Shown: positions 807 to 17,071 of the stretch, piece after piece
How positions within the stretch are numbered: the first letter of the stretch is position 1
Layout of the letters: each line of letters starts with the position of its first letter
Origin: Closterium sp. NIES-65
Taxonomy: Eukaryota; Streptophyta; Zygnematophyceae; Desmidiales; Closteriaceae
Direction of reading: 5' to 3'
Length of the DNA: 64,000 nucleotides
Assembly: GCA_948144175.1 (NCBI GenBank)
Contig: CANXME010002057.1
Coordinates: forward strand, 2,404,001-2,468,000
Translations under genes and position numbers: made by a program
Notes under the pieces: model-generated
Databases searched by the model: none
Told to the model about the DNA's origin: nothing
The model's input: the letters and a program-made list of their open reading frames with translations, nothing else

Positions 807-2666
807 TCGGTCTTCGTCAACATGGGGCCGAGCGACGGGCTGAAGCACGTACGTGGGTTCAACGGGGCATTGCAGCCTGTCGAGGGTCGCGGAACAGTCG
901 CTCTGCAAGGGGAGGCCGGGAAGCGGGTCCTCATCCCCGATGTACTCTACGTTCCGAGCGTACAGGCGAACCTGCTGTCTGCTAGCCAGCTGAAGGAGAG
1001 CGGAGTGCTTCCGCATGGCGATGGCGACGAGATGCTGCTCGTCGCCGCGACCGGGGAGGTGCTCGGTCGAGCACGCTACACCGGACGAGTCATCTGCACC
1101 GGCCTTCGCCCCTGCTCGACGTGGTCGCAATCGACCGGGGTGGTGGCTCTGCGGACGATCGTCTCGGCGATCAAGTCGACCCCTGATCGGCTGCATGCAA
1201 GACTCGCGCACGTCGGCGTCGATACGATCAAGAGCTCGGCGAAGCATGAAGTTGCTGTTGGGCTCGACATCACGCCGTCGACCGGAGTAGACCCGCCGTG
1301 TGTCTCGTGCGTCGGAGGAAAGTTGTCGTGGCACACCTTCCCCAACAAGGGCTCGGAAGTCGAGGAGGCGCTGGCTGTCATGCACATTGACTTGTGCGGG
1401 CCATTTCGGGTGGCTGCCAAGGATGGCATCTTGTACTTCCTGCTGCTGAAGGATCACCATACCCGGTTCGTGTGGGCAAGGCCGGTCGCTAAGAAGAGCG
1501 ACGTGCTGCAGGAGTTCCAGAAGTGGTTGGTGCTGGTGGAACGACAGACGAAGAAGTCGGTGCTGTCGCTTCGCTACGATCGAGGAGGGGAGTTCCTCGG
1601 GAAGGCATTCACCGACTTCGTCGACGGGAAGGGCATCGTCCACGACCTGACGTGCCCCTATACTCCACAGCAGAATGGCATGGCTGAGCGGGAGATGCGC
1701 ACGGCTGTCGAGTCCGTGCGGACGATGCTGCTGCACATGGGCATGCAGCACCACTGGTGGCACCTTGCTCTACGACAAGCTGTCTGGGTGCGCAACTGCT
1801 TGGAGCGGTCGACGACGCCACCGGGGACGACTCCGTACAAGCTGCTGACTGGGCAGAAGCCCAACCTTACGCTGGCGCGGGTGTGGGGCTGCATGGTGCA
1901 GTTCATGTTTCCCGAGCAACAGCGCGGTGGGAAGCTGGCGCCGAAGGCTCGTTGGGGACTTCACCTAGGTGTGTCGCCGGAGAGCAAGGGCTGGGAGGTG
2001 CTCGACCTGACCGACAACAACGTGGTCACGTCGGTCGAGGTGATCTTCTACGAGACGCTGTCGCTGAAGGTGTGGAAGGCAAAGAATGGGCTGGCGTCGG
2101 GGCGGACGCTGGCTCACCCACCAACGGACACCTCGACGGCAACGGTTCCGTTGCTCGCCGAAGTCGACGAGCGTGCTGATGAGGATGTTGTAGAGGTTCT
2201 TCCCCCTCCCCCTCTCCTTGCTCCTTCGTTCCCCGTCGCAGATTGGCTTGGTCGGCACCTGTGTCAATCACCGACGATGAGGGGAGCCTTGAGGCGTCGC
2301 CTGTGGCGCCGACCCATGGCATCGTCGGTGATCGACAAGGCGCCAAGCTCGTTGACCACGGGAAGTCGTCGACGACAGGAGAGCAGCAGACAGGGGATCT
2401 GGTCGTGGAACAAAAGGCAGCAGCAGCGGTGCAGCCGACAGGGGATCAGCAGCCGGGGCAGCCAACAGGGGATCAGCAGCCGGGGCAGCCAACAGGGGAG
2501 CAGCAGCCGGGGCAGCCGACAAGGGAGCCGCAGCCGGGGCGGTCGACAGGGGAGCTGTCAAAGTCAGCAGCAGACGAGCAGCCGGTCGACGGGTCGAAGC
2601 AGCTGGCCGACGACGAGGACGTCGACGAGGAAGGGGAGCAGTTGACGGGTGAGGAGTCCACCAACA
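807..2666 (+). pseudogene. pol: copia pol (PR end, GAG-pre-integrase, integrase), element A
   Basis: Continues the frame of gag. Contains the end of the protease, the GAG-pre-integrase zinc finger (His near 1190-1215, paired Cys near 1300-1315), and the integrase core. The D,D(35)E residues are visible in HIDLCG (about 1385), YDRGGEFL (about 1578) and NGMAEREM (about 1680). QQNG precedes the Glu, as is usual in copia. A frameshift lies near 2200-2250: the linker coding frame (with the QPTGDQQPG repeats) is a different frame from the integrase. Integrase inserts cDNA in the nucleus. The frameshift, the two gag stops and the B insertion make it inactive. Confidence 0.85.
2433..2552 (+). repeat. 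27-bp tandem repeat in the INT-RT linker of A
   Basis: Four to five imperfect 27-bp units coding a QPTGDQQPG-like nonapeptide. Linkers between integrase and RT in copia elements are often low-complexity. It has no known catalytic role. Confidence 0.8.
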
Positions 2667-3571
2667 TGTTGTGTGATGCAATCATATGCATTCACGTCTG
2701 TCTGCCTCCCATCATGTGTTCGTGCGCTGCATGCGTGGTGTGAGCGTGTGCAAGAATTTGTGTATGTGCGGTTTGGTTTTTCTGAGTGTGTGTGTGTGTG
2801 TGTGTGTGTGTGTGAATGTTATTTGGCTTGAGCAGATATCTGAAGTGACTCCTCTGCTCAAGAGCTTTCCGACGAACCAAGTATCGCTTCAATCGGAGCA
2901 CGAACAAGAAAGTTACGAACGTTTGAAGTTCGTATGCTTTTGATATTTGGTTGTGGTGACTATGGGGAGTTGTGGGGTTGACTCCATATGGGGTACAGAC
3001 TTTTGGGGGTTGGGAAATTCGTCAACATCACTGTAGATGCTGCCAAGTGGTTGGGAGGAGCCAAACCAGGTTGGCAAGTGTGGCCAAGTTGGGCAAGGTG
3101 GATGGCATGGGTTGGAAAGTGACAAAAGTGAAAGTGGGGTTCCTATAGGGAAGGGATTTGGTGTGCTTATGGGGTTTCCTTGGTTGGGGACTCGTTGGGG
3201 ACTCCTTGGGGACCTTCCCTCTCCTCCTCCCCATCCCTTCCACCTGGTTTAGTGCTACTAAAACTCTCTTGTGTAGTAATTGTGAACTTGTGTGAGATTC
3301 TTGTGATTGAGTTAAGATTCTATGGCAGCATACCCCCTAGTGCGCCGAATTTGATAACTCAAGAAATACTTCACCTTTTGGTATGATTCAACTTTGGAAT
3401 TGTAGCCACGGAATAGAGCTACAACATATCTGAGTTTAGTGAAGTTTTGACCGTGAACGTTTCGTCGACGGCGTTTCTTGTGAGCGCGACTTTTCTGTCC
3501 AGAATTCTAGCCAACGATTTTGAGAATTTTTGGCACCTAATCTTCGTATACTCCGTCCTTAGTCTCTAACA
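2667..3571 (+). repeat. 5' LTR of element B
   Basis: 905 bp, TGTTG...TAACA ends. Nearly identical to 15237-16505 except for a short (TG)n run here (2786-2814, 29 bp) against about 393 bp in the other LTR. No RNA start site can be placed with confidence. Confidence 0.9.
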
Positions 3572-15236: not shown

Positions 15237-16505
15237 TGTTGTGTGATGCAATCATATGCATTCACTTCTGTCTGCCTCCCATCATGTGTTCGTGCGCTGC
15301 ATGCGTGGTGTGAGCGTGTGCAAGAATTTGTGTTTGTGCGGTTTGGTTTTTCTGAGTGTGTGTGTGTGTGTGTGTGTGTGTGTGTGTGTGTGTGTGTGTG
15401 TGTGTGTGTGTGTGTGTGTGTGTGTGTGTGTGTGTGTGTGTGTGTGTGTGTGTGTGTGTGTGTGTGTGTGTGTGTGTGTGTGTGTGTGTGTGTGTGTGTG
15501 TGTGTGTGTGTGTGTGTGTGTGTGTGTGTGTGTGTGTGTGTGTGTGTGTGTGTGTGTGTGTGTGTGTGTGTGTGTGTGTGTGTGTGTGTGTGTGTGTGTG
15601 TGTGTGTGTGTGTGTGTGTGTGTGTGTGTGTGTGTGTGTGTGTGTGTGTGTGTGTGTGTGTGTGTGTGTGTGTGTGTGTGTGTGTGTGTGTGTGTGTGTG
15701 TGTGTGTGTGTATGTGTGTGTGTGTATGTGTGTGTGTGTGTGTGTGTGAATGTTATTTGGCTTAGGCAGATATCTGAAGTGACTCCTCTGCTCAAGAGCT
15801 TTCCGACGAACCAAGTATCGCTTCAATCGGAGCACGAACAAGAAAGTTACGAACGTTTGAAGTTCGTATGCTTTTGATATTTGGTTGTGGTGACTATGGG
15901 GAGTTGTGGGGTTGACTCCATATGGGGTACAGACTTTTGGGGGTTGGGAAATTCGTCAACATCACTGTAGATGCTGCCAAGTGGTTGGGAGGAGCCAAAC
16001 CAGGTTGGCAAGTGTGGCCAAGTTGGGCAAGGTGGATGGCATGGGTTGGAAAGTGACAAAAGTGAAAGTGGGGTTCCTATAGGGAAGGGATTTGGTGTGC
16101 TTATGGGGTTTCCTTGGTTGGGGACTCGTTGGGGACTCCTTGGGGACCTTCCCTCTCCTCCTCCCCATCCCTTCCACCTGGTTTAGTGCTACTAAAACTC
16201 TCTTGTGTAGTAATTGTGAACTTGTGTGAGATTCTTGTGATTGAGTTAAGATTCTATGGCAGCATACCCCCTAGTGCGCCGAATTTGATAACTCAAGAAA
16301 TACTTCACCTTTTGGTATGATTCAACTTTGGAATTGTAGCCACGGAATAGAGCTACAACATATCTGAGTTTAGTGAAGTTTTGACCGTGAACGTTTCGTC
16401 GACGGCGTTTCTTGTGAGCGCGACTTTTCTGTCCAGAATTCTAGCCAACGATTTTGAGAATTTTTGGCACCTAATCTTCGTATACTCCGTCCTTAGTCTC
16501 TAACA
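15237..16505 (+). repeat. 3' LTR of element B
   Basis: 1269 bp. Same ends and sequence as 2667-3571 apart from a few substitutions and the much longer (TG)n run. Confidence 0.92.
15356..15748 (+). repeat. (TG)n microsatellite inside B's 3' LTR
   Basis: About 393 bp of nearly pure TG/CA with two TA interruptions near the 3' end (about 15711 and 15725). It accounts for the whole 364-bp size difference between the two LTRs of B. Long open frames here (CVCV... and THTH...) are artefacts of the repeat. Confidence 0.97.
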
Positions 16506-17071
16506 CGACAGCGACGTGATGGAAGTGCCGATCGCGAAGTCTGAGCTGCGACGCACAGGTCGAGCTCGACGGCCACCGGACCGGCTGAGCTTCCACACTT
16601 GCCTACCGCTAGCTGCCTTCACCACGGTGTTCGACGCGGTCGATGACGACCTGTTGTACGACGACGTCGAGGAGGATGAAGACGTGTCGGAGCTCGACCC
16701 TGACGTGCATGCCGACCCCGAACACCGCTGGGACATCGCCACGATGACGGTGAAGGAGGCGCTGTCGAGCTGGAAGCGCGAGGCGGTGAAGGCCGCCTTG
16801 GAAGAAGAGATCCGCAGCCTCATCAGTATGGGGACTTGGGAGCTGGTCGAACGCCCACGTGGGGTGAACATTATGAAGAACCGGTGGGTGCTGACGACCA
16901 AGTACCGCATCGACGACACCGTTGAGCGCGAGAAGGTGAGGCTGGCCGTGAAGGGCTTCACGCAGGTGTACGGCGCCGACTATGACGAGGCGTACTCGCT
17001 GGTGAGCAGCTACGTCATGCTGAGGATCTTCCTTAGCATCGTCGCTATCCTCGACCTCAACCTGATGCAGC
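16506..17071 (+). pseudogene. pol: reverse-transcriptase fragment of element A (original right flank of B)
   Basis: Begins with the right copy of B's target duplication (CGACA) and continues A's linker and RT N-terminus: RARRPPDRLSFHTCL, MTVKEALSSW, WELVERP, LAVKGFTQVYGADYDEAYSLVSSYV, ILDLNLMQL. It then breaks off before the YVDD catalytic region. The rest of RT and all RNase H of A are missing here, so a deletion joins RT to the 3' non-coding end. Confidence 0.88.

Follow-up and report, generated by a model that had tools for sequence, protein, structure and literature searches.

The window analysed here is a 64,000-nucleotide stretch of the streptophyte Closterium sp. NIES-65 (GenBank assembly GCA_948144175.1, 874 Mb in 2,400 contigs; contig CANXME010002057.1, hereafter C1759, positions 2404001-2468000), in which a long terminal repeat (LTR) retrotransposon, element B, lies inserted in a host element, A, and is itself interrupted by element C (Table 1). 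Both A and B are copia-type elements. In B, the domain order found with Pfam (gag_pre-integrs, Pol_BBD, rve below cut-off, SH3_retrovirus and RVT_2, the last below cut-off at 12642-13820 and above it at 14106-15179, middle piece 5.2e-29) has integrase before an RVT_2-type reverse transcriptase (RT), as in the Ty1/copia type. Its LTRs have TG..CA ends (they begin TGTTG and end TAACA) and lie between 5-bp target copies, CAACA and CGACA, that are one base apart. No primer-binding site is present beside the 5' LTR (LTR5), where CGACA and the start of the A RT (RVT_2) stand instead, and B is in this respect a broken member of the Ty1/copia elements. An LTR element without a primer-binding site should not prime reverse transcription.

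Base-by-base alignment confirms, as far as the assembled sequence goes, that LTR5 leads directly into a copy of the sequence beyond B's own 3' LTR (LTR3), and bears out the proposal of a first-pass annotation that the unit of LTR, CGACA and A RT block occurs twice. In a self-comparison of the window the match between the two LTRs continues unbroken through 3572-4138, corresponding to 16506-17072, with mismatches at 10 of 1,443 ungapped sites when the (GT)n array is excluded (4/876 in the LTR and 6/567 in the flank block, rates that do not differ significantly, p 0.20). LTR3 is longer than LTR5 because its (GT)n array has grown, to 393 bp with a longest pure run of 356; the other measured B LTRs have runs of 6-46. 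Both block copies open with CGACA, and the left target copy reads CAACA. Mismatches are moderately clustered along the LTR+block repeat, a mismatch-free run of 786 sites having a p of 0.004 under uniform mutation and of 0.017 with CpG weighted tenfold. Four of the six block differences (3618, 3994, 4003 and 4084) are CpG transitions, which suggests methylation-driven decay.

Table 1. Features of element B and its nested neighbours in the window, and the related places found with the LTR+block query
Feature	Position	Strand	Basis
Left part of host element A (gag to integrase)	1..2661	+	Profile and sequence comparison
Left target-site copy CAACA, probably mutated	2662..2666	+	A copy without B has CGACA
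5' LTR of B (LTR5), 905 bp	2667..3571	+	Self-comparison of window
Captured copy of 3'-LTR flank: CGACA and 5' part of A RT region (RVT_2)	3572..4148	+	
A RT/B gag join, 3-bp microhomology AAG	4146..4148	+	Comparison with other B copies
Remaining left internal region of B: end of gag, protease region, pre-integrase	4149..5210	+	
Element C, nested in B	5211..12640	-	Target copies GCGTG at 5206-5210 and 12641-12645
Right internal region of B: integrase, RT, RNase H; in-frame stops present	12641..15236	+	
3' LTR of B (LTR3), 1269 bp owing to (GT)n expansion at 15356-15748	15237..16505	+	
Original right flank: CGACA and A RT block, source of captured copy	16506..17072	+	
Scar of 201-bp deletion between two AGCT copies	17069..17072	+	Undeleted in C1871
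Duplicate D	Left part C1759:2483125-2484708; right part C1759:2495706-2497173		LTR+block query
Homologous locus, right part	C1871:2445312-2446786		LTR+block query
A copy without B	C1871:2398204-2398780	-	LTR+block query

The captured block comprises 577 bp directly after LTR5, and its left copy extends ten bases further into the A RT than the match itself. These bases, CGACATGAAG (4139-4148), are also present in the undeleted right flank of a homologous locus on contig C1871. The right-flank match stops at 17072 because of a 201-bp deletion between AGCT copies, which is found in the right repeats of the window unit and of a nearby duplicate, D, and is absent from the left repeats of both and from C1871. 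The left copies were therefore made from undeleted flank, which shows that the left block matches the right flank in its state before the 201-bp deletion.

This later deletion also sets the apparent end at 4138, near which the first-pass annotation had placed the join to gag; comparison with C1871 and with other B copies rules that position out. In seven of seven other B copies gag reads ..GGTTCAAGTGTTTCAGCC (one copy with TATTTC), the A flank in C1871 reads ..CTCGACATGAAGAACGC at the join region, and the left copy reads ..CTCGACATGAAGTGTTTCAGCC both in the window and in D, so that A side GACATGAAG and B side GGTTCAAG meet at AAG, 4146-4148. The microhomology that the first-pass annotation suggested looking for is present, at these positions instead of at 4138, and the join shows the short identity and the loss of B-side sequence that mark microhomology-mediated end joining. 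It falls inside what we take, from a motif identified by eye, to be the CCHC zinc knuckle of gag, of which only the last Cys is kept. As the distance from LTR to join is 1,007-1,070 bp in the seven other B copies, ~1.0-1.07 kb have been lost relative to them, in agreement with the suggestion that the block replaced the primer site and most of gag.

The B copies used for comparison come from nine fetched loci (L014-L018, L019+L020 counted as one, L023, L024 and L025), a subset of the places that match the LTR alone. The fetched stretches of L023 and L024 lack the B gag region, leaving seven copies for the gag comparison (L014-L018, L020 and L025) and, without L020, six for the primer site; not all of them are intact, as the 5' LTR is shortened in L015 and part of the interior is inverted in L016. 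The A block is absent at gag in 7/7 copies with gag in the fetched stretch, so the possibility that B copies elsewhere carry the same RT block between 5' LTR and gag was not borne out. Directly after the LTR, 6/6 copies have AGTGGTATCAGAGC, which is presumably a Met-tRNA-type primer site, or a one-base variant of it.

A genome search with an LTR+block query (40 of 7,644 candidates scored, which makes family counts lower bounds) returned, besides the query itself, duplicate D, the C1871 locus and one A copy without B; LTR-only matches lie at at least 34 places, with 87-94% identity. In pattern searches of the assembly, the join (up to 2 mismatches) occurs at two places, the window and D. The junction of LTR end and flank (up to 3 mismatches) occurs at five, all in the window locus, the duplicate or C1871, three of which follow B's 3' end while two are the left copies of window and D; the junction of left A sequence with the LTR (up to 3 mismatches) occurs at one.

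The whole structure is thus also present as a duplicate on the same contig. Duplicate D (C1759:2483125-2497173) lies 76.46 kb downstream in direct orientation, is ~1% diverged from the window unit and has another left flank. Collinearity with the window extends from 2675 to at least 43574, with few indels and without one insertion of the window unit, the D-element, and we infer a tandem duplication of the whole 76 kb. At the left edge of the duplicate (L011:3834-4140) an A 3' fragment (like window 17171-17459) is joined non-homologously, through a short filler, to LTR position 9. The filler is CGACA or CGACAG and may be a copy of CTCGACAG, which stands 14 bp upstream; CGACA is also B's target sequence. 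The A fragment at this edge is a further copy in its own right, truncated beside a C-like element.

The C1871 locus is collinear with C1759:2400001-2404000, with window 1-2500 and with the stretch from element C to window 38254, indels aside. Both loci have C nested in B and the join of LTR3 to its flank, which shows that the insertion of B predates the divergence of the C1759 and C1871 copies. The left part of B is rearranged in C1871 relative to C1759: near A position 2500, ~166 bp upstream of B's target, stands another B-family element (LTR 87.9%; L025:172-3875, C1871:2432272-2435975), whose LTR is followed by AGTAGTATC.., a one-base variant of the primer site, and which a deletion with apparent filler has fused into C. 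C1759 and C1871 may be either alleles or homoeologues. Two of the B copies, L016 and L017, lie on different contigs and agree in target copy (AGTAG) and flanking bases, which suggests that the assembly holds both homologues.

Against this age, the two LTRs of B are too similar. LTR5 and LTR3 differ at 4/866 sites (with a slightly wider mask around the array), compared with 21/855 between the LTR3 copies of window and C1871 (Fisher 4.5e-4); for the block the counts are 6/567 left vs right and 17/567 window vs C1871 (p 0.033), and LTR and block pooled give p 3.1e-5. Five two-LTR B copies, which are not fully independent since L016 and L017 probably represent a single insertion present on both homologues, differ between their LTRs at 22/878, 33/692, 29/873, 30/873 and 30/877 sites (pooled p 4.7e-8 vs window). 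The LTRs of B are therefore more alike than insertion age allows, as is characteristic of LTR-LTR gene conversion. The LTR clock has been reset: LTR divergence is 0.46%, while the homologous loci, which split after the insertion, stand ~2.5% apart, and a value of this kind can underdate an insertion already common to both.

The first-pass annotation had taken CGACA for the mutated target copy; the polarity is probably the opposite. The A copy without B, which is the closest outgroup, has CCACCGACAGCGACG at this site, and on this basis CGACA is probably the ancestral sequence and CAACA its mutated form; the corresponding bases are CTACA in C1871 and CAATA in a more distant A relative on the minus strand of the window, near 42,700. 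With outgroups included, derived states are found at 12 block sites in C1871 only and at two, 3600 and 3753, in each of the four C1759 copies (window unit and D, left and right repeats). States common to these four, and found neither in C1871 nor in the outgroups, are 3531 T (in the LTR), 3600 G and 3753 T; at 2696 the outgroup state, G, is kept by the left repeat of the window unit only. The distribution of these states suggests that the left end of LTR5 is original, and that its right end and the block came from the right side of the C1759 lineage.

A later exchange between the two sides can also be traced. Of 52 polymorphic sites among five sequences, 26 consecutive ones, between 2831 and 3618, have the same state in the left and right repeats of the window unit (permutation p 0.0038 uncorrected, 0.023 hand-corrected for six pairs; at least 0.12 in the other five pairs). 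Derived states that the two repeats of a unit have in common (2950 for D; 3459 and 3750 for the window unit) all lie at or before 3750, and those common to one side of both units (3994, 4084 and the 201-bp deletion) all lie at or beyond 3994, a perfect ordering with a chance of 1/35 when 3458, whose window-unit state also occurs in the outgroups, is counted as a fourth unit site. These observations support conversion between the left and right repeats of the window unit after the duplication, with discordant sites forming a tract as in LTR-LTR gene conversion, and this conversion may have passed beyond the edge of the LTR; a single site is the evidence in the case of D. A single clean tract from the LTR to 3750 was considered and rejected, being broken by site 3618, a CpG at which recurrent change is possible. 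While the run 2831-3618 is supported, a tract to 3750 is suggestive. It is conceivable that conversion between the repeats left the LTR more than once, carrying unique flank with it (577 bp at first, and possibly to 3750 later in the window unit), in which case LTR pairs would move and homogenise host DNA and reset the LTR clock.

We consider it rather probable that the captured block arose by break repair primed by LTR homology, which ran through LTR3 into the flank and was followed by end joining in gag. B inserted into A (target probably CGACA), and C into B. A break between LTR5 and gag would have left an LTR5 end able to pair with LTR3 on the sister, the homologue or the same molecule; synthesis would then have passed the LTR end and covered 577 bp of the adjoining A, after which microhomology end joining at AAG would have attached the new end to gag, with loss of the ~1.0-1.07 kb given above. 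Copying on the C1759 lineage is supported. The first-pass annotation had likewise the block copied from the 3'-LTR flank after insertion, leaving a dead element, which agrees with our results. Of its two proposed routes, LTR conversion overrunning into the flank fares well in that an LTR-primed copy with an illegitimate join fits and a later tract at the LTR end is supported; both routes would give the same product.

The same order of parts could be reached by a tandem duplication of gag, B, LTR3 and block through the A RT/gag microhomology, followed by an LTR5 x inner LTR3 deletion that removed the first internal copy. These are two ordinary events which yield the exact present order and predict the same LTR mosaic; the region is itself present as a larger direct duplication on this contig, with a non-homologous left edge and filler, and the available part of a study of maize centromere 10 describes a 22.7-kb nested-element duplication at 5 nt identity, attributed there to alternative end joining (PMC4806543). 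Since two events are needed and the intermediate was not found, we regard it as possible but doubtful. The other first-pass route, exchange between a solo-LTR allele (A-LTR-A) and the full allele with an illegitimate A RT/gag join, is unlikely: a single crossover suffices and 2662-4145 resembles the left part of such an allele, yet none is present among the one A-left/LTR and five LTR/A-right places of this assembly. Repeats and a long (GT)n tract can mislead an assembler, but a duplicated or misjoined piece is very improbable when a second copy, ~1% diverged, with another left flank and lacking the 7.3-kb D-element insertion, has the same join, and when the blocks differ at 6/567 sites plus a 201-bp indel. 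Least credible of all is capture during retrotransposition, by a template switch onto A RNA that placed the block in the incoming element. Although A and B are both copia-type, the block opens with this insertion site's own target copy and A sequence, no primer site follows the LTR where a new insertion needs one, 0/7 other B copies examined have the block, and the five LTR/flank junctions found all belong to the locus and its homologue.

Several observations weigh against repair primed from LTR3 on the C1759 lineage with later conversion, or limit it. The present data do not discriminate between a one-step break repair and two-step routes with the same product. The originality of the left LTR end rests on one site, 2696, which is not shared by the left repeat of D, and at sites 2830 and 3458 some C1759 copies go with C1871. 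The conversion run is significant in only one of six pairs, and a single tract is at odds with site 3618. C1871 sits on a long branch (12 C1871-only block sites vs 2), so that the divergence comparison overstates the time gap; moreover, the deletion in C1871 removed B's own 5' end, and the ancestral 5' structure is therefore not visible there. Copying may also have preceded the split, with conversion following it.

The captured-flank structure is a clean case of a known class of repair scar. Intra-element LTR gene conversion has been described in plants, where, in the part of the paper available, converted regions are predicted in 25% of LTR pairs and LTR dating comes out too young (Jedlicka et al. 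2020, PMC7251063). As there, the 5' and 3' LTRs of one element have been homogenised after insertion; unlike there, where tracts are analysed within LTRs, the copied stretch reaches 577 bp past the LTR and is joined to gag. Human non-allelic conversion likewise involves two LTRs flanking one element, with maximum tracts of 14-450 bp in the portion of the report at hand (Trombetta et al. 2016, PMC4921805), whereas the stretch copied here is longer and leaves the LTR. Nested retrotransposons of the maize centromere (CEN10) resemble our locus in their nesting, in joins with 1-11 nt identity and in a local duplication ascribed to alternative end joining, and include an apparent internal duplication from double recombination between nested elements; in the accessible sections, by contrast, no 5' LTR runs into a copy of its element's 3' flank (PMC4806543). 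Microhomology-mediated break-induced replication, as outlined in the excerpts available, shares the short (2-5 bp) joins and duplications mixed with deletions near repeats (Hastings et al. 2009, PMC2621351), but the first switch here probably used long LTR homology. Among the titles and abstract openings covered, none describes such an arrangement of 5' LTR and own 3' flank, although this does not prove that it has never been reported. As the flank in its undeleted form, a B-free A copy and a duplicate can all be compared, the locus would be a clear and datable example of how repeat-primed repair can kill a retrotransposon and copy neighbouring DNA into it.

A search of viral contigs and prokaryote genome contigs for relatives of the RT/RNase H piece of B found none. 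The D-element (18550-25879) is inserted in A's 3' LTR between target copies GACAT, in the window unit only; its LTRs are identical at 128/128 sites and it is missing from the duplicate and C1871, and is therefore very young. C-family elements at 7885-12388, 18784-23098, 27943-32132, 50845-55428 and 55735-60025 carry GC-rich minisatellites with units that include 15, 24 and 45 bp, several of them inside long open frames.

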